A stretch of DNA of 64,000 nt, taken from Chloranthus sessilifolius (lineage: Eukaryota; Streptophyta; Magnoliopsida; Chloranthales; Chloranthaceae). This document shows positions 115-40,012 of this stretch, piece after piece. The notes beneath the pieces were generated by a model. That model was not told where the DNA came from, did not search any database, and worked only from the letters and a program-made list of their open reading frames with translations. Every line of letters begins with the position of its first letter. Position 1 is the stretch's first letter. The stretch is taken from contig CM037593.1 of the NCBI GenBank assembly GCA_021018995.1, forward strand, positions 32,811,810-32,875,809, written 5' to 3'. The position numbers and the translations under genes were made by a program.

Positions 115-320
115 TGGCGCAACTAATAGTTGTGCCAGGCTATTTCTCCCCAGAAATGGCCTGGTGTAACTAATAGTTATGCCACTTCTCCCAGGATTTA
201 AGCCTGGCACAACTAATAGTTGCACCAGTATTAATTGTAGACCCCACCTCATCAGATAGTCAACTTCCAGGCACTATTTTACTATACATTTGCCTGGCAC
301 AACTATTAATTTCACCAGGC
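115..320. repeat. Cluster of four degenerate GCGCAACTAATAGTTGCGC palindromes (LTR copy 1)
   Basis: Palindromes at about 115-139, 159-184, 202-227 and 292-320. The centre AACTAATAGTT (or AACTATTA) is kept, while the outer CpG positions are changed to TG or CA in most copies, as expected of methylated cytosine decay. The same cluster lies at the matching place in the other LTRs. Confidence 0.9.
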
Positions 321-600
321 ATATGAACAGTAACTATTAGTTTTTATCCTAAATTTCGTGATTGGAGTTTGACTTGTTGACCACCTCGACCTTTGGGGTG
401 TGCTTTACTAGTTCTGTTGCACCCATTTGTATCCTATTTGCAACCCTTTAAGTGGCTTAAAGCCTCACCCCATCATCCACCATTGGAGGACCTTCTCACA
501 CATCTTAAGGCTCCAAAAAACCCTAGGAATCCTTAGATGTGAGATTACCTAATTGCTAAACCCATTTAGCTCTTAAGTAGCCTCCTAACCCACCCTTTTC

Positions 601-610
601 CTATAAATAG
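601..610 (+). promoter_or_regulatory. LTR TATA box
   Basis: CTATAAATAG followed by a C-rich stretch; identical in all three LTR copies (also 17873-17882 and 39284-39293). It probably drives the genomic transcript, which places the palindrome cluster in U3 about 300 bp upstream. Confidence 0.75.
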
Positions 611-1345
611 AGCCCCCCACCCCTTGGTTTAGGGGTTGAGAATTTTGGCCTAAGAGAGAAAGAGTTAAAGTGAGAAGATCTTTCTCCCTTTTGTGCACAC
701 TTCCCATACAAATTTTAGATTTCAAAAAGCTCCCTTAGACCTTAGCATTTCACTAAAAGCCTTTAGGTTAGGTGTGTGTAATCCCTTAGCCTTCCCTCTC
801 TACCTCTTAGCTTCAAGCCTTAGGAGTTAGAACCCCTTTTTCCACCATACAAAGCCATCAAAAGCTCATCAAAGTAAGCCATGCAAGGCTCTCCTACGGT
901 GCTATAAGGGCCCGAGGGCTCCGGCTCTCCCCTTTCTTCTCCTATCTCTTTCTAGCTCCCTCCATCCTTCCATTTGTGCCGTTACACCGCCGACTTTTCG
1001 GTAGGAACGAAGGGGCACAAATAGGATTCTAAGCCCTTTTGGGCAAGAGGAAACTATTTTCCTTTCTTTTGCTTTATTTTATTTTTGGCCATAAGTAGAG
1101 ACCGCGTTAAGCGGGTTGATCGGGTGCTAACACCTTCCCGATCGATAACCAAAGCCCCTACCCAAGAGCCTTTGGTGTGGACCGGATTCAGAGTCATATT
1201 TGTGGCACTTCGATGCTTATAAAACTGATATAGGTATCCCGGGACACCAAAAGCTTCGGGTGGCGACTCTATATTTTTTGCAAGTGAGCGCATTGCCGCG
1301 ACGAGACCGTCATGAATCCCACGGTTGCACATTAAGTCGGCACTC

Positions 1346-1915
1346 TATATAAGTGAGGGAGCCTTCATTTGTTTCTCATTCTCGGATTTAGTCTTGAGTT
1401 TTATTTTTTCTGGATATTTTGTGTTCTAAAATTTGTGTTTTAGCGATATCAGATGATCTTATTGTCCGATTGGGATGTCGTTTCTTCCTATGTCCATGAT
1501 TTCGCGTGATCTTCGCCTTGAGGTGATGCTTGGGGATGACATTATTTTAGGAATGAGCGATATTAGGAATTAGGGCACTAGTCTTCACATCGATCCCTTT
1601 TAGGGAGAAGTGAAGGCAGCGTTGAGGAGGTGGCAGCGGAGGAGGTGAAGATGGCAGAGCAAGTGGGGGGATTTGTTCCCCAACCAATCCTCCACCTCTC
1701 CTTCTGAAGCCTCCGATTGGACGCTCCAAGTCTGGTGATAATCCTTCTGAGGCTTCCGATTGGTCATTCTGCTCCTCGCTTTGTGTCGATTTTGGGTCTC
1801 TAGTTTTCGTTTTGGGTTGTAAGTTAGGTTCTAAGTTTTCGTTTTGGATTGTAATTTTAGGAGGTATGCCTCCGGTGGTACTTGTAAAATTTTTAAGTTA
1901 TTAATAAAAGAGATT
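1346..1915 (+). pseudogene. Decayed accessory transcription unit 1 of element A
   Basis: A TATATAA at about 1346 is followed by a leader that resembles the leader of the PMD gene at 3903-4060 (both have TTTTCGTGTTTT-like and GTCGTTTCyTCC segments). After about 500 bp it ends in a hairpin/poly(A) motif at 1860-1888 that resembles the PMD gene 3' end at 7501-7530, with AATAAA at about 1903. I see no open frame that looks like a protein. It may be an internally deleted relative of the PMD unit or a different accessory gene. Function unknown. Confidence 0.45.
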
Positions 1916-4084: not shown

Positions 4085-7000
4085 ATAGAGGGTGAGAGTG
4101 GTGATAGGCACGATCTTACTATTTCTGAGTTGGAGAGGATTATGATGGGGGAGATAGGTGAGACCTCTAAGGCTTGCACTGATGTTGTCGGGGAGGTGGT
4201 TAGAGAGGAGGTACCGGAGGCTGACCAGGGGGTGGTCAGGGAGGAGGTACCAGAGGTTGACTAGGTGGAGGTCAGGGAGGAGGTGCTCGAGATTGAGCAG
4301 GGTGTAGTGGAGGATGAGGGTGAGAGGGTCAAGGGTGAGATACCAGAGGATGAGAGAGCTGAGGATGTGGCTGAGGAGCACTAGCGTGTGGAGCGTCTGG
4401 ATCGCAAACACTTCCCGCTAGAGGATTTCTTCGCTCGAGGTCGGTTAGGTACCCGTGAGCAAGAGTTCCCTCATTCTTTTCTAGGCATTTTAGGTTATGA
4501 TGTAGACTTATTAAGATCTGGAAACCCCTTTTCAATTTATGTCGAACCTGCATTGATTATTGGTTGTGTGCTCACTCATGCATCATAATGGCATCTAGAG
4601 ATAGGTCATGCTTCTATTAAGTTGTTCTTGTCATATTTTGTGTATTTGTTGTAAGTTGTTATTAGTATGTCTGGATATATTTTGTTTGCTTTTAGCTCTA
4701 GATCTATTTGTCATTCGTCATAGGTATGTGTTAGTCTTACTTTTTCTATTTGTGTTTCATTTGATAGGAGCCCTCGTAGCCGGCTATCGGCTTGACATGG
4801 ACTGAGTCTCATACTTGATACCATGCCTTGTCAGATTTTCAGCGGGCGCAGTTGGCATCTTTCAGCTTCGGGCCTATCCTAGAGCCGGAGCCCTTTCAGG
4901 TCGATTGTGGCCTAATTGCAGCAGTTTTAGAGAGGTGGAGGGAGGAGCTTCGGGCACTTCTCTTTCCAGTTGGCATGATGTTTTCGACTCCAGAGGACTG
5001 GGTCCGCATCAACAATCTTCATTTTGAGGGCGAGCCGATTACGAGGTGGATGGAAGGAGCATATTTGGAGGCGTGTGAGGAGATTTTGGGCATACCGTAT
5101 AGGTCAAGTGGCTCGGGGTCGGGTGTAGTTTGAGTCACTTGGTTTTTCGATACGTTTGCGAGTGGTTTTGTCCCTCCGAGGCATCATTTGGAGGCGAAGG
5201 TATCTTACGAGGTGCATTGTGTGGTGGTGGTGGGTCGAGCCCGTGGTTGAGCCTGGGTTGGCTGCAGATAGGGTGCTTCGAGCGTTCTTGATGCACTTCC
5301 TCGGTGCAGTACTCTTTTCTTCTTTTACTTGGAGATGCATCACCGAGTTGTTTTTTATGGTTCTTAGGGACTTGGATCTAGTCCCTACCTATGTGTGGGG
5401 TGCGATCACATTGGCGTATCTCTATGAGCAGCTTTATCTTCAGGGACGGGGAGTCGCGACGATCAGAGGTTTTCTTCCTTTCCTCTAGGTGAGTTTTAGT
5501 TAACTGTTGTCATGAGGTCTTTAGTTTTCTTAGTCTTTTAGTGGTAACACCTATTTAGCATTTCTCTTGTGTTTTTTTTAGTTCTGAGTGTATGACCATT
5601 TCGCTTTTCTTCGTCCGGGAGTTCCGTTGGAGGTGACGTTCACGTTCCCAATGATGTGCGTGTGGAGGGAGGCGTTGAGGGGTCGTCGCTGGTCTTCGGA
5701 TCTTCAGACTGCATGCGATCTTTTCGAGGACATGCATGCGGGGCAGCTATATATCATTGTGTGTATGTTTTTGTGTCATTTTATTTCGGTCTTGTAGGAT
5801 CTGAGGATTCATTGATGGGTTAGCTTGTTTATTTGATTAGGTAATTTGGAGGCCATACGCGACCGAGGAGGATGCGGGTGTACCAGTGATTCAGTCTAGC
5901 CAGCCCTTCTTCGACAGGACATATGGGTCCATTGTTTTAAGAAGGTGGAGAGGATCCACCTAACTCGGGTGGTGCGACAGCTGGGGCTCGCTCAGGGAGT
6001 CCCTCCAGAGATTCGCCATAGGATGGCGGAGAGGATAACTGGCCCTCCTTGTCGGAACTTTATAGATCGGATGGCGCTTTAGATGGCCGATTTCAAGACT
6101 AGGGGGACCAGGGTCACTGGGGCGCGTGATGAGATTGACGTCCAAGAGTATAGGAAATGGTTTATTGCATTGGGTGGCAGGCGCCTCTTCACACATCCCT
6201 TCCATGGGAGTGGCTCTTTCATGGTCGGCGGGCTAGAGTCGACATCGGCATTGAGAGAGAGGTTGGCTGCATTAGAGCAGAGCCATCTCACCACGAGTGT
6301 GTGGGGGGCATTAGACGCCCTCCATAGGGCAATGGAGCAGATGCGGTGTGCCCCTTGTCCGGATGAGGAGCTGCTTCCCTCCTTAGCTCTCTCAGTAACT
6401 CAGGCTATGGGAGCAGAGGATGAGTTGGGGGCTTGGCTAGCGGAGACTCGACAGCTCCTGGTGAGTTGATTTATTGGTTTTAATTGTTTGCGTATTATGT
6501 TGACTTGGCCTTTCAGTAGTTCTGACATGGTTGTGGTGTCTCATTTTTTTTTATTTTGGATAGTCTGAGAGGGAGGCCGAGGTTGCTAGTCATGTGGCGA
6601 TGATCGGTTTGTTATGTGGTCAGCAATTGGCCGGCTGAGAGGTGGAGGCCAATTTGTGATCCGAGACTGATCGATTGGTAAGTGTCTATATGAACTTGGT
6701 TTTGTTAATTATTAGCATTGTGGGTTTTCCGACTGATGTGTTTATTGTTGTTCATAGAGAGCCGAGCTTATTGCTGGAGGTCCCATTTCGACATTTGATC
6801 TATCCTCAGTTCCTTTTCAAAGTTTCCTTTTTTGTTCATATATATATTGGTTTCCTTTGACTTGGTGTGGTTATACAGGTTCGTCAGCTTTAGGAGGTAA
6901 GTCTAGAGGCGATGCGAGCATGCACCACTCCCGAGGCGAGACGGATCCTTGGGAAGATGTAGAGTCGCAATGACCTATTTGTTGAGATGATGGTTACATA

Positions 7001-7444
7001 GAAGACTCAGGCTGAGGCATTGGAGGCAGTGCGTCGGATGATGCGGGCAGAGATGTAGGTGTCTCTAAATCAGCTGCAGTATCGTCTAACGAGGAGTGAG
7101 TGGGGGATACGTGGGTTGGCTATTTAGCTTGGTGGATCGGATTCGAGAGCTATGGGTTCCTCGGTTGGGCAGTCTCGTCACACGTCTCTTGAACGTATGA
7201 GGGGTGATGCTCGTGAGGATTCTATTATTTGGGAGATTCTTACGGGGTATCCTCCTCATTCGCGATCGAGGTGATCTGTTAGCCAGACGAGTGAGGGGGT
7301 TATGTGGTAGGGCCTTGTCGTCTAGAGGTTTCGAGGACTCCGGGTGCCGAGATTGTGTTTTCAGAGGACCAGTCTATAGACCTTCGAGCTGATGATACTG
7401 GGGACAGCGGCGCTCGTCCATCTCAGCGACAGCGTAGGGAGTAG
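4085..7444 (+). pseudogene. Plant mobile domain (PMD / aminotransferase-like) gene, multi-exon, decayed
   Basis: Reading pieces in order: an acidic N-terminus with three VREEVPE-like repeats (4085-4588, two in-frame stops), then PMD core pieces at 4828-5133 (ALLFPVGMMFSTPEDW) and 5190-5487 (VLRAFLMHFLGAVLF, VLRDLDLVPTYVWGA), a probable GT-AG intron, then VYDHFAFLRPG at about 5588, then ERIHLTRVVRQLGLAQGVPP near 5950. A 6083-6469 helical segment follows, and coiled-coil-like exons end with RQRRE-stop at 7442-7444. PMD proteins form a plant family found both in host genes (MAIN/MAIL types, linked to silencing and genome maintenance) and in transposons. It lies antisense to gag-pol of element A. 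Stops and frameshifts make it a pseudogene. Compared with the element-B copy it lacks about 560 bp, including some exons, near 6810. Confidence 0.8.
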
Positions 7445-7500
7445 GGGTGTGTGTGTGTGTGTGTTTTTTTTTTTTCATTGTGTGTGTGCGTTGTATATAT

Positions 7501-7530
7501 AGGGGGGATGCCCCTGGTGACAAGTGTAAA
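7501..7530 (+). terminator. Conserved 3'-end hairpin plus TGTAA poly(A) signal region
   Basis: GGGGGGATGCCCCTGG can fold into a short hairpin and is followed by TGACAAGTGTAAA. Near-identical at 46373-46400, with weaker versions at 1860-1888 and 3069-3096. TGTAA/TTGTAA is a typical plant far-upstream polyadenylation element. Confidence 0.5.
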
Positions 7531-7542
7531 AAGAAAATTTTG

Positions 7543-7589
<47 letters not shown>
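7543..7589. repeat. (TA)n(GA)n microsatellite
   Basis: A run of TA dinucleotides followed by GA dinucleotides, just after the PMD 3' end. The element-B copy has (TA)n at 46417-46455. Confidence 0.95.
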
Positions 7590-9100
7590 ATTTTTTTTGG
7601 TTTAGATGTACCTGATTAGCTCATTTTCTCTTAGTTACCTCTTGCGTCTACTTTTGCTTTTTAGTTTCTTTAGCGCCGTCGACCATCATTGGGACTTGGA
7701 TGCTTCCTGAGTTGGCCCGGTGATAGTTGTAGGTTATTCTGTATCTGAACATGCAAAGGTAACGCTATCAGTAATTTTTGTTCTCTCCCTTGCTAGTCGT
7801 CAAGGGGGGTGAGTGTCTCAGACCGAGGTCTGGTAATAAAGGTGGATGTGTATTGTTTTTCTTTTTCTTTTTTCTTTCTTTTTTTTTCTCTATTTTTTTT
7901 TCTTTTTTTAAAAATGAAAATAATGCAATAGGAAAAGAAAATAACTGAAATAATAATAGAAATAGAAAAAAAATATAAAAAAATGCCCCAGTGTAGTAGG
8001 GTGGTAGTGTTGGCAGTATAGCCTCATTCTTTGAATGGTAACTTCGTCATTCCTCGTCTTCTTTGTGGACAAGTCGGCACTTCTAATGTGATTCTCCTTC
8101 TAATCCAAAAAAATGCCCCAGTGTGTAGATGCAACGGAGCTTTTCTGGGCTGTTGATGAGCACTTTGGGTCTATAAGCAGTCATGAGTACTTGGTGAGTT
8201 AGTTTTGAAAAAAAGTTCATCAGTACTGTCATCGAACTGAGGGGAGGTCGTTTTGATTAGGTCAGTTGTATACGGGGGTCTATCTTGGGGTGGTGGTCAT
8301 CCTATCCCTTGGTTATCAGGGAGGAGTATGGTAGGTATAGTGGGTGATTGCATCAGTCATCATTCATTAGTTTTCAGTTTCATTTCTAGGAGCATCTTGT
8401 AAGGCTTTTGATTTATCGTCCGGAATAAAAATAGAAGAGGGGGGTAAGGCTTAGTGATGTGGGGAATAGTTTGTATCTAACACTTTCCAAAAGGGATGAG
8501 TAACAATCTTTTTCTCAGAGGGATACGGGATGCCACGATCGAGCTTCTTTGTCATATTTCGGTACCATCAAAATCTCACATTCTATGGTTAGTAGGAGTT
8601 TGTCCTCCTCCTGCCACCTTACGACGACATCTAGTAGTATGGGGACATCAGGGATGCCCTCGCATCTTGCTTATACACTTCTATTAAAATTATTAGAGAT
8701 GCCCTCACGATTTGCCTATGCTTGCCTGAGCTCATTGACTTGTTCATTCATTGTAATGCTCTCACTCAAAATTTTTCGATGTATGTATTCTTTAAAAGCA
8801 TCCTGCTAGCGCAAGAATAATAAGTTTTGATTGAACGTAACATCTTCATTTTTTTTGCTCTAATATCTCCTCCAATAGCGGGAGAAGGGAAATGAGGATC
8901 AGATGTTACTCATGCTTTTGAAAGTGGTTAGGTAGGTCACTAGTCTTTTAATCAAATTGCCCGAGTGAGAAAAGGTGGGCGACAATCGAAGGTCTTAAGG
9001 ATATTCCGAGAATTGATGATGTACGACCAATGAATGGGACGTGACGACTACGGGAGTGATAGGTATAAGTATTTAACCACGGGATGTGATGATCACAGGG
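7590..9100. other. Inter-gene region between PMD 3' end and integrase of element A
   Basis: Clearly alignable with 46456-48150 in element B, so it is part of the element and not host DNA. It contains a T-rich then A-rich tract (7850-7985) and a repeated AAAAATGCCCCAGTGT phrase (about 7980 and 8108). Short frames on both strands are broken differently in the two copies, so I do not call a gene. Confidence 0.6.
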
Positions 9101-10230
9101 CTAAGGATAGTATTTTATAAGGTACATGGGGTTCCAAGGGCTAGGGAGTTCTTCCCTGTCTTGGTTCGCCAGTTTGTATGTATTTCCAGGGTATGCGGCT
9201 GTTATAACATAAGGGCCTTCCCAGTTCGGTTTTAGTTTTTCTTTCGGATGGGCATGCTTGGAAGGCATGATTTTCTTTAAGACTAATTCCCTAATATTAA
9301 AAGTTCGTTCGAGGACTTTCTTATCATAAGCTCTGACCACTCTCCTCTGATATACCTAAGCGTGATCAGCTGCCCTTAGATGTGTTTCATCAAGCTGCTT
9401 TAACTGCGTGAGTAGACCAATTCTCCTCTAGTCTAAGGATAGGTCATTATCGAGTTAAATCCGTAAGGAGGGTACTTATATCTCATATGGTAAGACTGCC
9501 TCCATCCCGAAGGTAAGGAGGTAGGGAGTTTGGCCAGTGGCCGTACGAATAGAGATCCTATAGGCCCAGAGTGCTTTCGATAGTCGTTCGGGCCAGCCGG
9601 CTCCATTGCTCATTTCTACTATGGGCTTCAGGATTCGAATCAGCATTTTATTCATAGCTTCTATTTTTCCATTACCTTGAGGGTAGAATGGTGATGAGTG
9701 GTATAGATTGATGCCATACTTCTTGTATAACTTCTTCGTCTTCTCTACGATGAACTGTGGTCCGTTGTCGGTGATAAACATCCTGGGTACTCCAAACCTG
9801 TTGATGATATTTCAAATGATAAACCTCACGAGTGTTGAAGCGGTGATTTTGAGGTAGGATTCAACTTCTGCCCATTTGGTGTAGTATTTGGTCGCTGTAA
9901 GTATAAACACATACTTGTGAGTGTTCCCAACTGTGTTTGTGAAAGGTCCGATGACATCAAAGGCCCATATCGAAAATGACCATGGCGAGGTCATAGTGTT
10001 CAATGCAATTGATGGAGCTTTGATGAGTGTGGCATGTTCTTGGCATTATTTGCAGGATTGGACATAGAGGTGGCAATCTATGATCATCATCAGCCAGAAG
10101 TAGCCTTGTCGTGTAACTTGATCAGCGACCCTCTGTCTATCGAAGTGGGCGCCACAGGCACTGGCGTGTGCTTCTTGAATGATGTATTATCCTTCAGCGG
10201 TCATGATGCATCATATTAGTACTCCTTTAT
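9101..10230 (-). pseudogene. Integrase region of element A (Tat pol)
   Basis: On the minus strand: a remnant HHCC zinc finger (C..CQEHA) near 10050-10200, then the catalytic core with AFDVIGP (first Asp), ITDNGPQF (second Asp) and GKIEAMNK (Glu), then WAYRISIRTATGQTPY. The C-terminal domain follows with KLKPNWEGPYVI and ends at YLIKYYP-stop. Stops interrupt it (for example near 9810 and 10050). Integrase inserts element cDNA into the chromosome. It follows RNase H directly, as in all Ty3/gypsy pol genes. Non-functional as it stands. Confidence 0.9.
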
Positions 10231-10338
10231 TGAAGGCTTCTTTGTATAATATTTCGTCGAGTATGTAGAATCGGGCGCATCGGTTCCTTATAGTCTTACG
10301 TTCAATTTTTATGGCATATGGAGGGACATGTTGATGCT

Positions 10339-11520
10339 TTAAGAAGTTCCAGATATTGAAATATCATGGCTGTCCATCGTCGATTGGTGATTTTTAAAAT
10401 CTGAACATAGCGACTTGGTTTCTGGTTTGATGTGCTTTTCCAGAGTGATTGCTTCTTTTGGTCTTGTATTAGTGGGGAGGATTGGTAATTCTCTCTTGAC
10501 GGTCCATGCTACTTCGTGGGCGAGTATTATTAACTTTTTTATGAAGAAGGTCTTGGTACTTTGGCCGATGGGTATTTGGATGACCGAGGCTAATGTGGCA
10601 AGGGAGTCAGCGAGCTCATTTTCTAATCTAGGGATGTGCATTAAAGAGATTCTTTCAAAATTTTTTACCAAATATTGAGCAATTTTTAGGTATGCAATTA
10701 GTCTCCTTTCCTTGGTTTTCCTTTCTCCTATAACTTGTGAGATTACGAGTTTGGAATCACTAATGGTTTTCAACTGCTTAACGCCTAATTATAATGCTGC
10801 TCATAGTTCAGCTATAAAAGTTGCCTATTTTGCAACATTATTAGTGATAGGAAAATCTAATTGAAAAGACTTAGGTATGACAACTCCTTTGGGGCTTAGG
10901 AGGACTATCTCGATGTCTTTTCCCTTGTGATTTAGAGCACCGTCAAAATAAAGGGTTCATGACATCTTATCGGGCTCTTAGTTATGGATCGTGAGTAGGT
11001 CTTCATCGGGAAAATTCGTGTGTATGGGTTTATCACTCGAGAGTGGGAGCTCTACGAGGTAATCGGAAATTGCTTGCCCTTTGATCAATTTTTACGTGAC
11101 ATAAGTGATGTCGAATTCTTGCAAGAGCATATGCTAGCGAGCGATCTTTCCTGATGTTGTGGGCATTTCGAATACGTACTTCAGAGGGTCCATTCGGGCT
11201 AGTGCTAGTATTTTATGTGCTTCGAAGTAGTGTCGTAATTTGGTTGAGGCCCACACCAGTGTGAGGCAGGTCTTCTCCATTGAAGTGCATTTTTGTTCGT
11301 ACTCGACCATCGTCCTACTAAGGTAGTAGATAGCCTTCTCTCTCTAGCTGACTTCTTTATATTGTCCCAGAAATACTCCCATGGCTTTGTCATTCGCTGA
11401 GAGGTATAGGATAAGAGGTCTTTTGAGAACTGGTGGTGATAGTATTGGCAGGTTAAGGAGGTATTTTTTGATATTGTCGAAGGCTTGCTGGCACTAGTCA
11501 TCCCATTTGTACTTAGTTCC
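10339..11520 (-). pseudogene. RNase H region of element A (dual RNase H)
   Basis: The first part, about 11500-11130, is the RT-linked RNase H/tether, with a decayed AIYYLSRTM...YSSMEK-type pattern and RMDPLKYVFE. The second, about 10980-10600, is the archaeal-type RNase H typical of Tat elements: YFDGALNHKG, TNN, SDSKLVISQV and ENELADSLATL, carrying the acidic residues of the active site except that the MAEYE-type Glu is lost. Several stops. RNase H degrades the RNA strand during reverse transcription. The order (RT, RNase H, second RNase H, integrase on minus) is standard for Tat. Confidence 0.85.
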
Positions 11521-11599
11521 TCCTTTCAGTAGTCTATAGAAAGGATCGTATCTGTCTGAATGCTGGGAGATAAATCTCCTGATGAATTGCAATCTTCCT

Positions 11600-12617
11600 A
11601 TCGGCCTCATAATTCTTTGATATTACTAGGAGGCGGCATCTCAAGGATGGCTTTGACTTTAGCAGGGTCGACATCGATTCCTCGCTTGCTGACTATGAAA
11701 CCATATAATTTTTCGGAGGTGACTCCGAAGACACATTTCTTTGGGTTCATTTTTAGCTGATGCTTCTTAGCTCCTTGTAGTACTAGTCGGAGTGCTTCAA
11801 CATGTCTTACTCGCATTTGGGACTTCACTAATATATCATCGATGTAGGCTTCTACACATTTATACATCATGTCATGAAAAATAGCCATCATGGCGCGTTG
11901 ATATGTGGCTCCTGCATTCTTGAGCCCAAAAGGCATGATGGCATAACAGTAAGTTTTCTATGGTGTGGTAAAAGAAATCTTCTCTTGGTCGGACTCTGCT
12001 AATTTGATCTGATTATATCGAGAGAAACCGTCCATAAAGGATACCATCTCATGTCCAACGGTGTTATCGACTAGAGTGTTAATGTGTGGAAGTGGGAAGT
12101 CATCTTTTGGGCATGCCTGATTGAGGTTTCGAAAGTCAATGCAAACCCGTACTCTGCCGTCTTTCTTGGTGACAAGTACTATGTTGGCGACCCACTTGGG
12201 GTAGAGGACGACTCAGATGAATTTGGCTTTGTGCAATTTGTCAACTTCCTCTTTAACTTGAAGGGCTATTTGTGAGAGTTTCTGCTTAACAGGATTTGCA
12301 TCGAGTTCTAAGATAAGGCGATGTTCTACTAAACTCGGGTCTAAACCAGGCATATCTTCATAGGACCATGCAAAGGAATCGAGGTGCTCTTGAAGGACTT
12401 GTGCAATCTGTTGATGTTCCTTGGAATTAAGCGTTACGCTATTTAGTAGCTTCTTGGGTTTCTCTTCAATGCCAAAGTTAAGTTCTTTTGTGGGTTTCGT
12501 GGTAGCTTGGGTTTGCTCATCGAAACGCTTGATAACCCGTTGGATGTCTGGCGCCTCTTCGGCGATTGGTGTTCCTTCTTCATCTTCGGTAAGCTCGTAT
12601 ACTACAAATTTCAACAT
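11600..12617 (-). pseudogene. Reverse transcriptase of element A
   Basis: Minus strand. A leading segment holds FAWSYEDMPGLDPSLVEHRL (12400-12290), then PKWVANIV, CIDFRNLNQACPKDDFPLPH, FMDGFSRYNQIKL, MPFGLKNAGATYQRAM and the active site YIDD at 11835-11846, followed by GFIVSKRGIDVDPAK. These are diagnostic of Ty3/gypsy RT. At least one stop lies just before MPFGLKN. The catalytic YIDD is intact here, unlike in element B. Confidence 0.92.
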
Positions 12618-12619
12618 TG

Positions 12620-14274: not shown

Positions 14275-14430
14275 GGTCATCTTATTGATAACCCAATCCT
14301 ATGTGTTTACATATTTTCGTTAGGACGACAGGTCCTACACGACCTTGCTTATTTTTACTGAGTCTAGTGTAGGGGACGTATCCTAGTTGGTACATAAGGT
14401 CTCACCCTTTTATCACAGTCGGGTTGATAT
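14275..14430 (-). other. G-patch-like segment after protease, element A (degenerate)
   Basis: The minus-strand frame gives LMYQLGYVPYTRLSKNKQGR followed by GPVV and HIGLGYQ. Spacing and glycine/aromatic positions resemble the G-patch that follows the protease in the Ogre-like element at about 24700-24830. It is weaker than that one. G-patches after protease are known in some retroviruses and plant gypsy elements and are thought to bind RNA. Confidence 0.45.
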
Positions 14431-14588
14431 CATAAAGTTTAGTGAGGTCTGAGCTGACCTCTCTCCTCATTAATTTTTGCTGACGCGTCGGGGGAGAACT
14501 AAGATGGGTAGGAGGACAGACTTTCACAATGATTGTCTCATCAGGGATTCGAGTCTTTTGAATGTGGCCCATGTTCAGTATCCATTTC

Positions 14589-26700: not shown

Positions 26701-27110
26701 AACGATGATTGTTAGGCAGCATTCAAAAAAATTAAAAGCTACCTCCTTAATCCACCTGTTTTGGTATCACCTGAGCCACGAAGACCACTCTTGATGTATC
26801 TCTCCACGACGGAAGTTTCGATTGGATGTGTCCTTGGGCAGCACGAATAAATAGGAAGAAGAGAGCAGGTCATTTACTATCTGAGCAAGAAGTTTACTCA
26901 TTACGAGACACGCAACTCTCATATGGAGAAAGCATGCCTAGCTCTTATATGGGCTACTCAAAGGCTCCGCCACTACTTACTATCTCAGGCCGTTCTGCTC
27001 TTGGCCCGAATGGACCATTAAAATACCTATTTGAAAAGCCAGCTCTCACTGGATGAACCACACGATGCCAACTTTTATTATCTGAATTCGACATCACGTA
27101 CATCACTCAA
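26701..27110 (+). pseudogene. RT-linked RNase H, Ogre-like element
   Basis: Frames give PRRPLLMYLSTTEVSIGCVL, then YYLSKKFTHYETR-like sequence, ACLALIWATQRLRHY and GPLKYLFEKPALTG. This is the RNase H that follows RT in all gypsy elements; in Tat it is thought to serve mostly as a tether. Frameshifts near 26850 and 26990. Confidence 0.85.
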
Positions 27111-27745
27111 AAATTGATCAAGGGGCAGGCACTTGCTGATCATCTTGCTGATAATCCTTTACCTAACTATGAGCCGTTAAGAACCGAATTCCCAGATGAA
27201 GATATCTTGTTCATGACGCAAGACGATATAGAAGAAGCAAAAGAATCATGGATAATACACTTTGACGGGGCAGCAAATGTCGAGGGCCAAGGAGTCGGCG
27301 CCATCTTGATTTCACCAAAAGTATCCCATGTACCGATCTCTATCAAGCTCAAGTTCCCTTGCACTAATAATATGGCTGAGTATGAAGCTTGCGCCGCTGG
27401 TCTGCAGGCAGCTCTCGATCTGAATGTAACTCTCCTTGGAGTGTGGCGATTCACAGTTAATCATATGTCAGACGAATGGTGACTGAAAGATGAAAGATGA
27501 GAAACTGATCCCCTATCATGAACACCTCGAGGATCTGATAGCTTGCTTCCAAGATGTGACTTTCTCATACGTCCCCCGGATAAGGAATCACTTTGCCGAC
27601 GCATTAGCAACTTTGGTGTCAATGATGGAAATCCCCTATGGTGTTGAGATGAAGCCGATCAGGATCGAGCAAAGGAATGAGCCGGCCTTCTGCCTCCAGA
27701 TTGAGGAACCTACAAAGCCTGATGATGAGCCACCTTAGTTCTTAG
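27111..27745 (+). pseudogene. Second (archaeal-type) RNase H, Ogre-like element
   Basis: WIIHFDGAANVEGQGVGAIL carries the first Asp; NNMAEYEACAAGL the Glu; FADALATLVSMM the last Asp, and VPRIRNHFAD matches the usual spacing. Having a second RNase H downstream of the RT-linked one is a hallmark of the Tat lineage. A break at about 27470-27490 removes the DS...V segment that normally carries another acidic residue. Confidence 0.85.
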
Positions 27746-27779
27746 ATATAAAGAATTTCCTCGAGACCCTAACTTTCCC

Positions 27780-28971
27780 AGAGGGTACATCCAAGACAGA
27801 CCGACGAACCATTCAACGTTTAGCGACGGGTTACGTCATTTGCGGGGAATGCCTCTACAAGCGATCATACAATCACATCTTACTCAGGTGCCTGACTGAA
27901 AGTGAAGCGGTCAATATTATGAAAGAAATCCATGAGGGAGTATGCGGAGCCCACGGTAGCGGTCACATGCTCGCTAAGAAAATCCTACGACAGGGATACT
28001 TTGGGACCACCATGGAATCAGATTGTTGCAAACATGTTCAAAAATGCTACAAGTGTCAGGAACACTCCAGTCTGATACACACTCCTGCCATTGATCTTCA
28101 TTGCATGACCACTCCTTGGCCATTTGCTACCTGGGGCCTTGACGTTGTCAGAATGATTAATCCAAAAGCATCAAACGAACATCGGTTCATCCTTGTCGCC
28201 ATTGAGTACTTCACCAAGTGGGTAGAAGCGGTGTCAAATGCCAACATCACGGCCAGTCACGTCGAGAAGCTTTTCAAGAACAATATTGTGTGCCGATTTG
28301 GAGTACCCAAAGATATCATCACGGACAACGGCACAAACTTTGTGAATAAGCGCATTCGAGACTTCTGCGTGCAATACAAGATCAAGCACCATCGCTCATC
28401 CCCTTATCGGCCTCAAACCAATGGATTCGTGGAAGCCACGAACAAGACAGTCGTCCGCATCCTTGAGAAAATGGTCATCACTTATCGAGATTAGAGCGAA
28501 ATGCTGCCATTTGCTGTGTGGGCCTATCGAATGTCGATCCATACCGCTACAGGGGCAACACCATTCTCCCTTGTGTATGGAATCGAGGCCATCCTCCCAG
28601 TAGAGGCTGAAGTACCCTCGCTCTGAATCCTCATGGAATCAGGCTTACCCGAAGCAGAAAGAGAGAGATCATGCTTTGATCAGCTGAACTTACTGGACAA
28701 AAAGAGACTCCTAGCCTTATGCCATACCCAAGTATACCAGGGGCGAATCGCACGCGCTTACAATAAACGTGTCCGCGATCGAGATCTAAAGGTAGGAGAC
28801 ACTGTGTTGAAGAAGATCTTCCCATCCCTCCATGCTGATCCGAGAGGAATGTTTAAGCCAAACTGGGAAGGACCATACGTCATTCGAGAAGTGTTGCCGG
28901 GATACGCCATCCGCCTCGCCACCATAGAAGGAGATCATCTTCCTGAGCCCATCAATGCTAGATACGTCTGA
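27780..28971 (+). pseudogene. Integrase of the Ogre-like element
   Basis: Zinc finger: EIHEGVCGAHGSGHMLAKKI with a CYKCQEH Cys pair. Core: WGLDVVRMINP (Asp), IITDNGTNFVN (Asp), NGFVEATNK (Glu). Then MLPFAVWAYRMSIHTATGAT and a C-terminal domain with GRIARAYNKRV, LKVGDTVLKK and FKPNWEGPYVI. Only a few stops, at about 28492 and 28624. The frame ends at 28971 at the end of the Gag-Pol coding region. Confidence 0.93.
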
Positions 28972-30400: not shown

Positions 30401-31970
30401 TTTTCTATGCCCCTTTTTATATATATGATGCAAAAGTTACGTATGCGGGGAAGGAGTCAACGGCCCAACTCGCGCTTCAAAGCGCTAATCTCAGCATAGA
30501 GATCATCCTCTCGAACATTCCTCTCAGTCAGCTAACGACCATGCAGGCTCTTGAACCTCTTCCGAGAAGAGTCGGCGGCTCCAAAAGTAACACTCAGTGA
30601 TTACTTCAAGCGGAGAACCTCGCTCTCCGCTGTGTCTGCTCTAACCCGCTCGCATGCCAAGAGTTCTTGCAGTACCCTCTTCTCATCCACCAATAGCTCA
30701 ATACGGGTTCGGAGCGCCGCCTCTTTCTTTGGCCAGGGGCCTCCAGTATCAATGATCTCTGACAAATTCGGGCCATCAACGACAGGCCGCTCGATCCAAT
30801 GACACCTCATACTCGGGAGAAGTTCTCTAACCAAGTCTCCTGCTCAAAATCACATCATCGTGGTCTCATCACGTCTCCCAAAGAGCAATAATCCGGTCTA
30901 TGTCTTCGAAGGATCCCCTAGACAAGATCAAATCACATAAAGGGAGTCTGGCCTCACAAGACACCTGCTGAGGGCAGCCAAACTGACGCAACAACCAGAA
31001 TGGGAAGTAGAAGGTACTGCCGGTCAATCTGAGGAGGGTGATATCTTCATGGTCTCTAGAACGAATCACTGGGAAGGTTCGATCCAACCAAGGAAGCCTC
31101 CATGTCAGCTCAGCATCGACCAACCAAAGTTTCAGAGCCGATGTATCACCCTGGGGGAGCAAGTGGCATCTACCTAAAAAACAGCGGGCCACTTCTCCTC
31201 GAGCAACATAGAAGCGAGGCATGGGCCCCAAAATGGCAAAATGCTCACCCAGCTAGACCTGGAGCAATAAGGGGCATCCCCGAAGACCCTCCACTTGCCC
31301 AAGGCAAAAGAATCAAGGCATCGGTACAGCTTGGCGAGCATCAAATGCATCATGGACTGGGCTGCCTCCAGCTCCATCAAAATATCGCAAACTGCCAATG
31401 GGAAGCTTTCTCCCCTGGTGTAGAAGAGGATTTCAGAGATGAGACCAAGTGCTAGAGCTTTCACGCTAAAGACATTCCTAACCGGCAATTTTCGGAGGCT
31501 TTCATCACCGAAAAGTTATTTGAGGAATTTTAGCGAACACCTGGTGGGCCCCTCAATGAGACTTTTCTCATACTCGGATTTCTTCAAACCAAGAGTAAGG
31601 TGAACGGATCTGGAATACCCTGGTTTAGGCATAACTCTTGCAAGGTCCCTATGAAGCTTCAGGCCAGATAGATTGGATAGCTCCTCAAGGGTTGGGGTCA
31701 ACTCCTGCTTCCCAAAACGGAATACATGAAGGTTCACATCCCAGCACGAAGCAGCGGCATGAAGGAGTTCACCGAGAGGAATCTCTAAAGGAAGAAAGGC
31801 ACTCCAAGTCGGCGAGCTCACTCTCGTTCAAACTCCCAAACCAAGCCGCCAGGAGTTTGGGCCCCAAGCCTGAGAAAGAGGATACATTGGCTCTAGACCC
31901 TCCACGTAAGGGAGGCTTAGGAGGCGGATCCATGAACGTACAAGGATCTTTTGGGAAGATAAGAATCAAT
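30400..31970 (-). pseudogene. Antisense gene 2: DUF7745-like plant transposon protein
   Basis: Minus strand, beginning MDPPPKPPLRGGS at about 31930. Order: LLAAWFGSLNESEL; HAAASCWDVNLHVFRFG with QELTPTLEELSNLSGL; ALALGLISEILFYTRGESF with LMELEAAQSMMHLMLAKLYR; FYFPFWLLRQFGCPQQV; then a charged coiled coil (KKEAALRTRIELLVDEKRVL). This order and spacing are those of DUF7745 proteins, found in many plant genomes mostly in transposon context; function unknown. At least three frameshifts split it (about 31790, 31500, 31200). It has its own TATA and palindrome cluster upstream and lies between integrase and the antisense PMD gene, convergent with gag-pol. Confidence 0.7.
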
Positions 31971-32123: not shown

Positions 32124-32270
32124 TGGCTGCGCAACTAATAGTTGCGCTAGTGCATTTGAACCCCCAATTTGGCCTGGCGTAGCTATTAGTTGCGTCAGTG
32201 AAATTTCCTTGGCACTTTAGCCAAGCGCAACTAATAGTTTCGCCAGACTAAAATATTAGTTGCGCCAGAC
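32124..32270. promoter_or_regulatory. Palindrome cluster upstream of antisense gene 2
   Basis: Copies at 32124-32150, 32173-32198 and 32221-32246, plus a half site 32252-32270. Same sequence as in the LTRs, which suggests the antisense promoter shares its regulator with the LTR. Confidence 0.9.
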
Positions 32271-32642
32271 TAAAACCCCCCCTTCAGCCATCTCAGGGCC
32301 GAACTGAAGAGGGGACTTCTGCCCTATTTGTTGGTTTTTATATGTCGGCACTTCCGACCATCAATGACTTATGGATTATTTTATTATGTGCAGGATTGAT
32401 CCTACATCGAGGCATGCAACCCCAAAAGGCCACTTTCTAAAAAGGGTATGAAGCAGGCACATCCTGCAGAGAAATAGATTTGATGCCAAGCAAGCAGAGC
32501 ATAAAAATCAAAGCAAGACCATTTCCCAAATAATTATAAAAATCATCAAATTTGTCTCCAAAAGTGCCACACCAACCATTCTCCAAATTGTTTAAAAACA
32601 GATCCCAAAATAAAATCCAAAATGCTGAAGGAAACTAATGGC

Positions 32643-35090
32643 CTATTCCTTGCTCGCTCCCTTAGACTTCTTGCGATGGCGAGAGGAGCTCTGATAGGTC
32701 CTCATGTTCCCCACTCTAGACCACGCCTGTAAAATCCTACTGAGCAGGGAAGGCGACTCCTTAGCCTGGGCACACTGTAAGGCACAATCAAGGACAAAAT
32801 CAGTCAAGGGGCCAATGATAATGAAAAAGGAGGAGTTGAGCAGCCACAAACTCACCGTCTCCACCTCCCGAAGCTCTGCCAGATGATGATGGTACTCTGC
32901 ATATTCCATTGCCGAGTTGAAGTCCTACGATACAGAATTCAATTTTTAGAACACCCCTAAAAGCATGTATCGAAGGAAACCAAAATAAAGGGGAAGCGAC
33001 TCATCTAAAAACTCACCCCGGGGACCACCTCAGGAGGAGGAATGCGGGCCACCTCGGCAGAGAGCCGTGCCTGTCGGTCCACGTCAACACAAAGATATGA
33101 GAGGAAGCCATCGTCCAGACGCCGAAAGGTCCCATAAGCCACAGATGGACCCCCACCAGGGACACCCGCCTGAGAGGTACCCGACGGACCTGCACTTGAT
33201 GAACCCTCGCCCAAGGGACCCGCACCAGAAGGACCAGCACCAGAGGGATCTACAGCACTCGGCCCACTTTCATCGTCTGAACCATCTCTCGGAGAAAATC
33301 GTAAACCAAACAAGAATCTATTCAGATAAGACTCAGGCCGAGTAAAGAAAAAGCAAAAGAGAAATTAATCCAAGCTGAGAAGAGGTTCCCTGACCAAGTG
33401 GGCCCCTGAACGCAAGGAAATTAGCGCTAGGAACAAAACGCGGCAGGATGAACCGGTAGGCGAGGCACTCGTACCAAGCATTATAATCCCCAGGCACATG
33501 GAGAGCTCGAATAGGGAACCCATTGTTGAAAAAGGCCGCTATCAATTCCGCAATACTGTCAGCAGGGCTCCAAACGTCAGCCGGTGGGTCCACGGGTATG
33601 GCATAGTAGCCCTGGAATTGATGCACTACCCTCTCCCCCAAATAGTAGCATTTGGCCCACTCTCCATAAAAGAAGACGACGCGGCGGTTGTTGAATAGGC
33701 GGGAGTCACCCACAACTGCTCGGTCCCAGAAGGGGGACATCAGGTACGGATCGGAGAGGATCTGCTCAAAATCAAAAAAGCAAGAGGGACCAAATAAGCA
33801 ACGCCTCAATCAAAAGAAATGCTCAAGCTGAAAGTAAACTAGGGTTGAAATTATCACCTGCTCAGGCACCATCAAATCAAGCTGGGACCTTAGGCCCATT
33901 TCCAGGTGCTTTAGGCCCACGTCGCGGCGTCGAGCCTGATGCCAGTTGCTGAGGAGGGGATAGGTGAGCACCTCTGTGAAAAGGAGCGGGCGCCCAGGGT
34001 GAAAGTGGTGGTATCCCCATACCTAAAAAAGGGCATGGCGCGAGAGTAGGTTAGTAATATAGATGGATCAGTCAGGAAAAAAAATGATGAGTAAATGATA
34101 GCGATGAACAAAAGCGAAGGGGTGAGGAATTACCTCCAGAATGGCCCAAAATCCCACGGCAGACTTCGAGTCCCCGGTAGTGACTCGGGATAAGTTGTGC
34201 ATCAGCCAGGCGTATCCCGCCCCTCCCCAGTCATGCCTGGGAACATTGCCCCAATTATCCATCACACTCAACAGGGACAGGCTGATCCATCCCCCACTGG
34301 CATTTGTAAAAATGGTCTTGCCTAGCAGGAGTAGGGGGGTGATGCGAGCTAGAACGATCGTCCGCTATGGCACGATGTAAAGCACCCGATCTGGCTGGCC
34401 CAGGTCCACCAGCTCATCAACAGAAAAGAGGGAGGTCAACCAAGACATCTTGACCTCTGTGCCATGGGTCTGCCCACGAGGAGGATAGGCCGCGATCAAC
34501 CGAATGATGTCCTCCCGGCTCGTTACCGCCAAGGTTGATATTGGGACTCCGCCGATCCTAATGCCAGTAATCATGGCCCAATCAATGGGCGTCAGCGTCA
34601 GCTCGGCATACGGCATGTGGAACGTCATGGTCTCAGGACGGAACCGCTCAATGAGGGCCTTCAAATAGGCGGCATCCGCCCTCATGGCGGGGCAGGACAA
34701 GAAGTCCCCAAAGCCCACCTGCTCCAACAGAACTTTCACCACAGGGGGGACATAAAGGTAGAACTAGTGAAAATCAAGCCACCCCCCATGGAACACAATG
34801 TTGGGCAGCTCCTGCATCCAGAGAAATACACATCAGGTAGCAGAGGTAAAGAAAAAATTGTGCAAAGGAAAGGAACTTAACCAATCTTTTACCTTGCCCG
34901 CTATTCCGAAATTGGAGATGTGAGTGTGCAGCTGATGGAGGAGGCCGACCCGGGCAACCTCACCCTGCGTCTCGAGCCATGGGCCCGCTCTCCGCTCCAG
35001 CCAAAGGAACTGCTCTCCTCGCGGACCGTACACTATCTCGGGCCCCTCCTCGTGGCCCTCCTCAGGAACGTGCTCATCACCGCCCGACAT
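32643..35090 (-). pseudogene. Antisense gene 1: PMD (plant mobile domain) gene with six exons
   Basis: Minus strand from MSGGDEHVPEEGHEEG. Probable coding exons: 35090-34893, 34811-34134, 34022-33858, 33761-about 33390, about 33316-33017, 32924-32643, joined by introns with GT...AG ends (34892-34812 is 81 bp, 34133-34023 is 111 bp, 33857-33762 is 96 bp). PMD blocks: LKALIERFRPETMTFHMPYA with LTLTPIDWAMITGIRIGGVP, then HDWGGAGYAWLMHNL and VGFWAILE, then VWGYHHFHPGRPLLF. The Pro/Gly/Ser-rich exon at 33313 is low complexity. The last exon ends RHRKKSKGASKE-stop, a basic tail. I see only about two in-frame stops (about 34760 and 34370), so it is much better kept than gag-pol. Host PMD proteins act in silencing and genome stability; the role of the element's copy is unknown. 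Confidence 0.82.
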
Positions 35091-36580: not shown

Positions 36581-36590
36581 GTTTTAAATA
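36581..36590 (-). promoter_or_regulatory. Probable TATA box of antisense PMD gene
   Basis: TATTTAAAAC on minus, 10 bp downstream of the perfect palindrome at 36601-36627. Confidence 0.6.
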
Positions 36591-36600: not shown

Positions 36601-36711
36601 CCTGGCGCAACTAATAGTTGCGCCAGGCAAATGTTTGCCTTCCTTTGGCTTGGCGCAACTATTAGTTGCGACTATTTCCCCATATGGCTCTTGCAACTAA
36701 TAGTTGCGCAG
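36601..36711. promoter_or_regulatory. Palindrome cluster upstream of antisense PMD gene, with the perfect 27-bp copy
   Basis: 36601-36627 is a perfect palindrome of 13+1+13 bases (arm CCTGGCGCAACTA, centre A). Two more at 36650-36671 and 36689-36711. Confidence 0.95.
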
Positions 36712-38370
36712 TACTCTCTAACCTAATCGGGTTAGATGGGAAGACCGGTCCCCCTACTTCCTTTTGCTTGATTGTTCGGTCACTGCCAACCATGCACGCG
36801 CTCCCAAGGCGGCTTTTCGGTCATCCTTCAATTTGCCAAGGAAGCCCTCCTAAAATAAGGACGGGTCGAGGACAACGAGCACCCCCGTCCTACACACAAG
36901 GAAAATCCAAAAAAAAAAATTTAATCCCCACAGAGAAGTCGGAGATATTCACCCAATAAATTCCAAAAAATAATAATAATAACTCCAAAATTCAAAAACA
37001 ATTTCAAATAATAACTCCAAAATTCAAAAAAATTTCAAATAATAACTCCAAAATTCTAAAAAATTCACATAAAATAATAACTCCAAAATTCTAAAAAAAT
37101 TCACATAAGATAATAGCTTCAAAATTCAAAAAATCTCATAAAATAACAGTTGAAAAATTCAAAATTGCAGAAAAATCAACCCGCACAACGCACAAGCATA
37201 AAGCGGTAAAACGTCAATATTTTATCAGCAATGCAGCAATGCCACATCAAAGTCCTGAGTTGGAGGTTCGCCTCGGATCTCTAGATCCTGCCTTAAGGCA
37301 GGGGCAACGGTGTCGGTCTCGGTCAAACAATCAATGTTTCGATTAGGTCAACTCCACTGCTAAATCTTTGCGACAAGCGCTTGGACTCATGTGGAGTTAA
37401 GTGCCTTAAGCTTCAGATTCTCCGTTAAAAAAGGTCAATCATTGGTCAAAACCAACCTATCAAGAATGAGATTATGTGTCAATCAAACTATGTACAACCA
37501 TGCATTCAGAAGGGTTCATTTCTCTTTTATTTTCCGCAGGCTTAAAACCTGTATGGGCAGCGGTATCCCTATAATGTGTATGCCAAGCATCTGGGTATCC
37601 GTATGATGGTCGTTTGTCCTTGTAAATTGTACTCGGGTGGGTCCGGGTCGGGGCTTCCATCGCCTTTGTTGTTGCTTATTGCCCCTAATGGGTGCATATT
37701 TATACATAGTTAATTGATGCTTATGATCATTGTTGGCAGAAACCAGGATTGGATGTCCCTTTTGGGTTAGCACTCGGTAACTGGTTGGATCTGTTTAGTG
37801 GTATTTGAAGCTGGACGCTTTGGGTCATGTGGATCTAAGGTGCATTTTGAACACACCTGAAAAGCATTGTGACATCTATTCACTTCGCTCAGGTGGTCAT
37901 GCTAAATAAACTTTGGGATCAATGGGTTCTCCCAAAGATCTTGAACCTTGCTTTCAACAGGGACACTCGCGAATAATCCAATAAGGTCGCCAAATGCCTT
38001 GTAGGATTGGACGCAAACTGTGGAGCCTTGAGTATGTTTTCTTCGCGCCTATCTTTGAATGTGGGTCGATCACCCTTCTTACTTACGAAGCTGTTGCATT
38101 CAGAATGAATCTCGAACATCAATCACCTTCAAAACATCTTGAGAGGCAAACGTTTTTCCCAGCTATTGGGTTTTCGCAACTCATTCTACCTCGGTTATGC
38201 CTAGTAATGTCGCTAAGCGCTTGGGAATCGATCACCTCGAGAAACGAATGATTAGCCTGACACTCCAGGGCTTTCATTTTCTCACCGTGTTACTCACCTG
38301 ATGTTTGAAGTTCGTTCTGAATGCAGCAGACTCGTCAGTAATGCCTTGGGCCTCTTCGAATGTCTCTTTT
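36712..38370. other. Region between antisense PMD promoter and 3' LTR
   Basis: Contains units of 35-40 bp reading AATAACTCCAAAATTCnAAAAA (36960-37140) and otherwise mixed sequence without a convincing frame or homologue in the window. Confidence 0.5.
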
Positions 38371-38406
38371 CTTTGGCATTCGATCATTAGTGATCGAATA
38401 CCAAAG
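38371..38406. repeat. Inverted repeat overlapping the polypurine tract
   Basis: Two 16-base arms (CTTTGGCATTCGATCA and TGATCGAATACCAAAG) pair with one mismatch around TTAG. The right arm runs into the purine tract. Confidence 0.85.
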
Positions 38407-38411
38407 AGGGG
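38403..38411 (+). other. Polypurine tract
   Basis: AAAGAGGGG, then CATC, then the LTR start TGTAGACACCC. Primer for plus-strand DNA synthesis. Confidence 0.75.
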
Positions 38412-38415
38412 CATC

Positions 38416-40012
38416 TGTAGACACCCAAATTTGGCCTAAGGCCCGATCAAAATACATTTCGAGATAGGCGCATTTTTGAGCTTCTGATGGCATGTATGGA
38501 ACCCTTAAGAATCACCCTAAACCCTTAGGAATCACCCTAGATCCCTTAGGAACCTACCCTGAACCTTTAGAAACCAACCCTGACCCTTAGAACCCTTTTC
38601 GAACCCTAACCTAACCTTCCGAGGCAATAAGGAGGAGGGGTGCACCAGAATTGCCTATGACCCTCTACAGCAACCAACTCTAATACCATTGAAGAGTAGA
38701 GGTTATCAGCTTTCCAACGGTCTAAGAATTACCCCAATTAGAGGTATATATCAGAAGATATGGCAGTCCGAACCCGGAGGGCAGGAAGGTAAAACCATGT
38801 GGGCCCCCTAGGAATTTGGCGCAACTAATAGTTGCGCCAGGTATAAATTTTCTCTGGCGCAACTATTAGTTGCGCCAGGCCAATCTTCTTAGGATTTTAG
38901 CCTGGCGCAACTATTAGTTGCGCCCAAAAGGCCCCATCCTCACAGCTCACTTCGAGCATTATTCTTCCTTATTTTCTTGTGCATTTACTGGAACTATTAG
39001 TTGCGTGCATATGAACAAAGAATCTGTTTTGCTCCAAATTTTGTGATTGGGGTTTGACTTGTTGATCACCTCAACCTTTGGGGTGTGTTTTGATAGTTCT
39101 GTTGCACCCATTCCTTACCTATTTGCAACCCTCCAAGTGGCCTAAAGCCTCACCCCATCATCCACCATTAGAACCACCTTCACACCTTTCCAAGCTCTTA
39201 AAATCTTAGGAAACCTTAGATTTAAGATTACCTAATTGCTAACCTCAATTAGTATTTAAGTGGCCTCCAAACCCACCCTTTTCCTATAAATAGAGCCCCC
39301 CACCCCTTGCTTAAGGGTTGAGAATTTCTATCTAAGAGAGAAAGAGCTTAAAGTAAGAAGATCTTTCTCCCTTTGGTGCACACCCCCCATACAATTTCCA
39401 GAATTCACAAAACTCCTTTAGACCTTAGCATTTCATAGAAAACCCTTAGGTTAGGTGTGTGTGATCCCCTAGCCTCCCTTCCCTACCTCTTAGCTTCAAG
39501 CCTTAAGAGTTAGAACCACACTTACCACCATACAAAGCCTTCAAGAGCTCATCAAAGCAAGCCACGCAAGGCTCTCCTACGGTGCTATAAGGGCCCGAGG
39601 GCTCCGGGTCTCCCCTTTCTTCTCCTATCTCTTTCTAGCTCCCTCCATCCTCCCATTTGTGTCGTTACGCTGCCGATTTTTCGATAAGAACAGAGGGGCA
39701 CAAATAGGATTCTAAGCCCTTTTAGGCAAGAGGAAGCTATTTTCTTTGCTTCTACTTTATTTTATTATTGGCCAGACCACGTTAAGCGGGTTGATCGGGT
39801 GCCTAACACCTTCCCGATCGATAACCGAAGCCCCTACCCAAGAGCCTTTAGTGTGGACCAGATTCAGAGTCTTATTTTTAGCACTTTGGTGCTCATAAAA
39901 ATGAACTAGGTATTCCGAAACATCGAAAGCTCCGGGTGGCGACCCTATATTTTTTTATCGTTAGAGAGCGCATCATCGCGACGGGGATCGTCCTGATTCC
40001 CACGATTGCACA
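38416..40012 (+). repeat. 3' LTR of the Ogre-like element
   Basis: Aligns throughout with 17034-18609, with TG...CA ends. Its palindromes (38817-38841, 38854-38878, 38901-38924, degenerate 38991-39009) are the best-preserved in any LTR here. TATA at 39284-39293. The target duplication GGAAC follows. Confidence 0.95.

Follow-up and report, generated by a model that had tools for sequence, protein, structure and literature searches.

What does a palindrome that recurs in small arrays along the non-coding DNA of a plant retrotransposon do there? The question is raised by an Ogre/Tat-like Ty3/gypsy element in Chloranthus sessilifolius (assembly GCA_021018995.1, contig CM037593.1, positions 32,811,810 to 32,875,809 of the forward strand; this whole stretch of 64,000 nucleotides is referred to as the window, and coordinates count from its first letter). 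The repeated sequence is a 27-bp dyad, CCTGGCGCAACTAWTAGTTGCGCCAGG, in which two inverted AACTA half-sites flank one A/T to give the core AACTAWTAGTT, enclosed by GCGCC arms. Judged from its sequence, it is rather probably a double-stranded DNA recognition site, deployed in arrays, that would be read by a dimeric protein and serve strand-neutral cis-regulation.

Scanning the window with the 27-mer at up to three mismatches gave 10 matches, compared with 0 in 100 dinucleotide shuffles, and the 15-mer core, also at up to three mismatches, gave 23 (shuffle mean 1.4, maximum 6). We kept 21 of the 23 core matches, leaving out those at 63542 (outside the element, three mismatches) and 330 (12 of 27 positions matching). 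The retained matches form six clusters, all of them real and where a first-pass annotation of this DNA had placed them; no strand is assigned to any. They lie in three long terminal repeats (LTRs; LTR1 is truncated by the window edge, LTR2 and LTR3 bound the element), in the leader, and 5' of two antisense genes, one encoding a plant mobile domain (PMD) and the other called gene 2:

113 to 319, no strand: cluster in U3 of LTR1, four copies (113, 160, 203 and 293)
17411 to 17511, no strand: cluster in U3 of LTR2, two whole copies (17437 and 17485) plus half of one at 17413; what remains of a left arm lies further on, at 17582
19561 to 19730, no strand: cluster in the leader, four copies at steps of 48, 47 and 48 bp
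32125 to 32269, no strand: cluster 5' of antisense gene 2, three copies 48 bp apart and a fourth that overlaps
36601 to 36713, no strand: cluster 5' of the antisense PMD gene, three copies, the first a perfect 27-bp palindrome
38815 to 39010, no strand: cluster in U3 of LTR3, three good copies and a weak one at 38984

The earlier count of three or four copies in each U3 thus applies to LTR1, which has four, but not to LTR2, with two whole copies, and the fourth copy of LTR3 (38984) matches at 16 of 27 positions. A symmetrised profile was trained without the tested group (the three LTRs being omitted jointly) and its threshold set to the maximum reached by 20 Markov-resampled sequences of 64 kb; the left-out sites exceeded this maximum, with two weak exceptions, 38984 in the LTR group and 36687 in the PMD group. 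The best profile score outside the clusters was 7.8 and the weakest accepted copy scored 13.4. Neither the 27-mer nor the 15-mer scan matched anywhere between 19731 and 32124, which bears out the claim that the gag-pol coding sequence carries no palindrome, and in this element the dyad is restricted to non-coding DNA. In the initial list of 22 copies, A and T each hold the centre 11 times, which is what a site readable on either strand should show.

Searches beyond the window brought no plant relative from the collections used (viral contigs, genome contigs and a protein database). The exact 21-mer was absent from the viral contigs, and a 15-mer scan of genome contigs gave at least 116 stretches, the 80 listed all being bacterial or archaeal, which is chance for a short palindrome. 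The literature on palindromes in Sirevirus, Ogre and Gypsy LTRs, represented mostly by titles and partly by passages, yielded no description of the dyad. In the available passages, a review of plant transcription factors has GGCGCAACTA within a promoter fragment bound by AtNAP and lacks the dyad (PMC4844398), and another paper mentions palindromes only for satellites (PMC3212565).

The dyad is not conserved evenly along its length. Comparing the independent groups (LTR, leader, gene 2 and PMD) with one another gives 92.7% identity over the ten non-central core positions, 68.1% over the inner arms and 50.9% over the outer arms, and the 15-nt flanks stand near chance (31.2% and 28.5% identical, against 26.4% and 26.8% when shuffled). 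The copies had originally been selected by their core, so we rescanned with the arms alone: at up to 3 of 16 mismatches this found 12 places, all 12 in the clusters, with 0 to 2 mismatches in the ten core positions. Above three mismatches the arms-only scan is dominated by chance matches with unrelated cores (36 to 57 per resampled window at up to six mismatches). A second view of the same constraint comes from the LTRs:

17034 to 40012, plus strand: Ogre/Tat-like Ty3/gypsy retrotransposon of 22,979 bp, recognised by its LTR pair, by TGTAGACACCC at both LTR starts, by the flanks GAAAC/GGAAC and by an empty site in a second copy of its host element
17034 to 18609, plus strand: 5' LTR (LTR2), recognised by LTR pairing, with a primer binding site (PBS)-like TGGCGACTCTGCTGGGGA at 18612, 3 bp past its end
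38416 to 40012, plus strand: 3' LTR (LTR3)
1 to 1331, plus strand: LTR1, a partial LTR with 81% identity to LTR2 and LTR3

LTR1 is not followed by a PBS and is therefore part of another insertion. Over the three sites that can be compared between LTR1 and LTR3, the cores are equal at 31 of 33 positions, both differences falling on the central A/T, while the arms are equal at 36 of 45 and the remaining palindrome zone at 66 of 116; LTR1's fourth site lacks a good counterpart and does not enter the comparison. Diverged as it is, LTR1 keeps dyad cores at matching U3 positions, and counting A/T positions alone, none of 24 has changed (P 0.019 when the rate is taken from the LTR's A/T positions, 15.2%). 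Between LTR2 and LTR3 identity is 80% within the palindrome zone and 92-95% outside it. For a single insertion this is low in the zones concerned (17411-17620 in LTR2, 38815-39010 in LTR3), where local conversion or fast array change is possible.

CpG content does not account for the stability of the core, since CpG-type transitions are not in excess in the arms: they make up 12 of 79 arm changes, with CpG covering 4 of 16 arm positions. On the same count we rejected the idea that the arms vary through CpG decay. Both CpGs are kept in 10 of the 21 copies. A CpG island reading was rejected as well, the observed/expected (o/e) CpG ratio of the clusters being inconsistent (0.11 in LTR1 and 0.57-0.90 in the others, compared with 0.60 in the window).

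How the clusters arose bears on what this constraint can mean. Neighbouring copies are spaced by 47-48 bp in nine of 15 cases and by 38 bp in two, the remainder being 22, 43, 83 and 90 bp, and spacers of different groups retain a residual similarity (8.52 versus 6.89 when shuffled, standard deviation 0.33, attained in 0 of 2000 shuffles; nine spacers of 20-21 nt among the 14 were used). The 48-bp steps and the spacer similarity together suggest that an ancestral unit some 48 bp long was tandemly multiplied and dispersed within the element, and the clusters probably descend from one such unit of site plus spacer. Given common descent, the functional evidence lies in the retention of the dyad and not in its origin. 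The arrays might accordingly be neutral leftovers of an old tandem repeat duplicated in the element, with a core that is slow to mutate because it is CpG-free; duplication is what the steps and spacers indicate, and LTR2 has lost copies through deletion. We consider this improbable, in that the spacers are equally old yet near chance while the core stands at 93%, that the A/T sites taken alone still differ from the LTR rate at P 0.019, and that the arms, where CpGs do occur, show no excess of CpG-type changes.

A palindrome can also be read as RNA. Conservation of the dyad peaks at its centre, where the bases on both sides of the A/T are invariant in 21 of 21 copies, and among the 273 mirror pairs 48 no longer pair; 199 show no change, and pairing survives a one-sided change in 21 and a two-sided change in 5. 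In a hairpin the 3-base loop should vary; the centre is nevertheless invariant and compensations are few, and therefore a DNA dyad is favoured. Palindromes acting as RNA hairpins or DNA cruciforms, for example in the leader, in antisense 5' untranslated regions or in dimerisation of the genomic RNA, would agree with the strong RNA folds (z -8.0 for the perfect 27-mer and -10.0 for leader 19561-19700; on the minus strand, z -5.6 for the gene 2 cluster and -7.4 for the PMD cluster) and with flank pairing that is higher between true partners than after permutation (80 versus 62.7, p 0.005, 19 of 21 sites; across the test's four variants p ranges from 0.005 to 0.014). The element's clusters, that of the 5' LTR excepted, would moreover fall within the expected genomic transcript. 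The 3-base loop would however be the most conserved part of such a hairpin, broken mirror pairs (48 of 273) outnumber the two-sided changes that keep pairing (5), and as plus-strand RNA several copies form weak folds (for example -2.5 kcal/mol at 32243 and -2.7 kcal/mol at 38984). We therefore give hairpins or cruciforms little credence and favour a DNA site for a dimeric protein. Mirror symmetry inside the spacers is not claimed: it amounts to 34 versus 16.6 in base-shuffled spacers, but 40 versus 32.1 with permuted partners (p 0.06).

If the dyad is a DNA site, its position relative to genes and promoters should be informative. The coding regions of the element are these, all with approximate limits:

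20222 to 28971, plus strand: gag-pol region, broken, with G-patch, reverse transcriptase, RNase H-like and integrase domains; gag is assigned by position alone
33005 to 35090, minus strand: antisense PMD gene, broken by stops, with PF10536 above cut-off at 34368-34763 (E 1.9e-12) and two more pieces below cut-off
about 30601 to 31933, minus strand: antisense gene 2, broken, in which DUF7745 (E 0.0023 and 0.063) and PMD (E 1.5e-4) match weakly, none of them reaching its Pfam cut-off

With coding limits as approximate as these, four of four independent clusters are non-coding (P 0.034, non-coding DNA making up 43% of the tested span) and four of four lie in a 5' interval (P 0.016), so that placement in non-coding DNA 5' of genes is no more than suggestive. 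The first-pass annotation had put the palindrome at every promoter-like site of the element, and part of this stands, in that there is a cluster in U3, 5' of the gag-pol region and 5' of each antisense gene; a promoter-like site at each of these places is too strong a claim. A scanned TATA pattern follows the cluster in the direction of transcription only in U3, where the clusters end about 0.27-0.36 kb ahead of a conserved CCTATAAATAGAG, and at the PMD gene. The two antisense genes have the following TATA patterns:

36584 to 36590, minus strand: TATTTAA, 10 bp from the perfect palindrome, on the PMD gene side
32336 to 32342, minus strand: TATAAAA, across the cluster from gene 2; no other match to the scanned TATA patterns lies in this gene's 5' interval

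The first of these confirms the reported perfect copy (36601-36627) 10 bp from a minus-strand TATTTAA at 36590. The second, at 32342, lies beyond its cluster, so that the gene 2 cluster would fall within the 5' part of the transcript. The leader cluster itself contains a TATAAAA on the minus strand (19608), and all that follows it is an AT-rich tract from 20058.

Several points speak against a DNA recognition site that governs transcription. Besides the RNA folds and flank pairing given above, the placement evidence is weak with only four independent sites, the order of TATA and cluster varies between sites, and the evidence spans one element and one further LTR only. Methylation-sensitive binding through the arm CpGs is a guess, given the CpG o/e pattern and the lack of an excess of CpG-type changes.

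The recognition-site reading, which we still prefer, suggests the following course of events. Site and spacer, together about 48 bp, would have been multiplied as one unit and would have reached four places of the element, where the sites were retained while the spacers decayed. A dimeric DNA-binding protein is predicted to occupy the arrays, which may set transcription of the sense LTR promoter and of the antisense PMD-like genes, and the arm CpGs could render binding methylation-sensitive. A palindrome has no orientation and so suits promoters on both strands. One factor might serve all sites, and either genome could encode it: a dyad at both antisense genes would be compatible with self-regulation by a protein of the element, and a host factor would fit equally well.

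That a host transcription factor binds the dyads and that the element exploits it for its own expression is a special case of this reading, and one we regard as unlikely. Plant LTRs commonly rely on host factors; two copies (113 and 38815) read TTTGGCGC, which we take to resemble an E2F site, and TAGTTG presumably resembles MYB sites. The E2F-like arm is however the variable part of the dyad, for which reason an E2F site was rejected, and we know of no plant factor for AACTAWTAGTT.

The other special case is an anti-silencing protein encoded by the element, such as the antisense PMD-like product, that would bind the dyads as VANC proteins bind the repeats of VANDAL transposons. The dyad lies 5' of both antisense genes and in U3, VANC targets are likewise tandem repeats in non-coding DNA (PMC5735166), and Arabidopsis PMD proteins act in silencing (PMC5418596, PMC7156037). 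On the other hand, host PMD proteins promote silencing, which is the opposite sign, and we met no evidence for DNA binding by PMD. DUF1985, a VANC domain (PMC5735166), had no match among the 14 minus-strand pieces scanned from the element. In the available passages the VANC21 motif (YAGTATTAY) and the VANC6 motifs (AGTTGTCC and AGTTGTAC) are not reported as palindromic (PMC5735166), and the dyad and the VANC6 motifs have just AGTTG in common, five bases that we judge to be chance-level. An anti-silencing protein of this kind seems quite unlikely. We are as doubtful of its most explicit form, in which the antisense Ogre PMD protein would be a sequence-specific regulator acting on dyad arrays at its own gene, at gene 2 and at the LTR, as a methylation-dependent joint switch of sense and antisense expression.

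The closest precedent in design is provided by the palindromic repeated motifs (RMs) of Sireviruses (PMC2829016), for which the comparison relies on the passages at hand. There, too, a multi-copy dyad lies in U3 upstream of the TATA, and an additional gene, ENV, has more copies on its 5' side (77 of the 79 in the linker), with none described elsewhere in the element; the clusters at 32125-32269 and 36601-36713 are the corresponding copies here. Sireviruses are Ty1/copia elements, whereas the present element has the Ty3/gypsy domain order; 12 of 13 RMs have a CGG-CCG core and they measure 10-20 bp (PMC2829016), compared with 27 bp and the core AACTAWTAGTT here; and in the present element the additional genes are antisense and there is no consistent CpG island pattern. 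The closest tested function is that of the VANC targets of VANDAL (MULE) transposons, which resemble the dyad in being short element-specific motifs in tandem repeats of non-coding and not coding DNA (PMC5735166, PMC10398659). VANDAL elements, in contrast, are DNA transposons with motifs of 8-9 bp that the available text does not describe as palindromic, and their DUF1985 and DUF287 proteins have been shown experimentally to bind (PMC5735166, PMC10398659), whereas binding to the dyad is predicted. Retand (TRP28; PMC11963269) and Ogre (PMC6317226) likewise have antisense accessory genes, suspected of a part in regulation, in the interval from pol to the 3' LTR; those of Ogre are PMD genes like the one here. 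The passages available from these papers do not mention a cis motif common to LTR and antisense genes. The 'DOWN' motif of MAIN/MAIL1 is likewise a promoter motif tied to PMD proteins (PMC7156037, PMC9899485), but its MORC1 instance, CATGCAGTTT, is unlike the dyad (PMC9899485).

The window holds a second dyad array of another sequence at 43216-43964, where CTATTRTTTCAG accounts for 16 of the window's 19 matches at up to one mismatch (1.15 expected). Its inverted arms vary by unit yet appear complementary by eye, in tandem units of 85 and 251 bp, and it sits just inside a sequence resembling an LTR start (44011-44028, minus strand). It is possibly the family-specific U3 dyad array of another Tat-like element.

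The coding content and size of the element bear on its assignment to the Ogre group. Integrase follows the reverse transcriptase and RNase H-like domains, which is the Ty3/gypsy and not the Ty1/copia order. Ogre elements are marked by an extra RNase H, lodged between the usual one and the integrase; here RVT_3 is above cut-off at 27487-27735, directly before the integrase, and a first RNase H at 26775-27053 is without a Pfam match. No gag model matched the gag-pol region in the Pfam search. A G-patch domain lies within this region at 23937-24983 (plus strand, E 4.2e-10), and G-patch is one of the frequent non-canonical domains of plant Gypsy elements (PMC9289625). The very large internal region characteristic of Ogre is present (22,979 bp for the whole element), as is the extra PMD reading frame, antisense with PF10536 at E 1.9e-12; the Ogre PBS is complementary to tRNA-Arg (PMC9289625). 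Viral contigs yielded no relatives of the integrase or of the PMD piece, the PMD frame had no protein database match at E 0.001 among the best 8000 word matches, the PMD piece had none in the PDB up to E 1, and a literature search for DUF7745 gave no paper. A further PMD-like gene at 4819-5485 (plus strand; PF10536, one piece above and one below cut-off) is on the strand opposite to the gypsy-type element around it, and the 15-mer core scan found no copy of the 27-bp dyad near it.

The Ogre-like insertion itself sits within a minus-oriented gypsy-type element, its joined flanks aligning to the second copy of that element near 61.84-61.96 kb. The two copies (6126-17022 and 44445-61887) are 82-84% identical over three BLAST blocks, and the left one, interrupted by the insertion, resumes at 40012-42171. 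A Transposase_32-like frame at 59055-59792 (plus strand, E 2.7e-9, below cut-off) is on the strand opposite to the gag and pol of the minus-oriented element. Directly before the polypurine-like stretch and LTR3 there is an inverted repeat (38371-38406) whose 16-bp arms, with one mismatch, enclose a loop of four bases.

PMD genes are present in 57% of surveyed Ogre elements (PMC6317226), and their function has been described as unknown (PMC9289625). As a sequence common to LTR and leader that recurs 5' of each antisense gene, the dyad provides a concrete DNA target for asking whether PMD genes regulate their own element. It would also extend to Ty3/gypsy elements a palindromic-array design so far described in Sireviruses (Copia). 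If the PMD protein does read the arrays, it would be an independently arisen retrotransposon counterpart of VANC, and a gene carried by over half of Ogre elements would gain a role.

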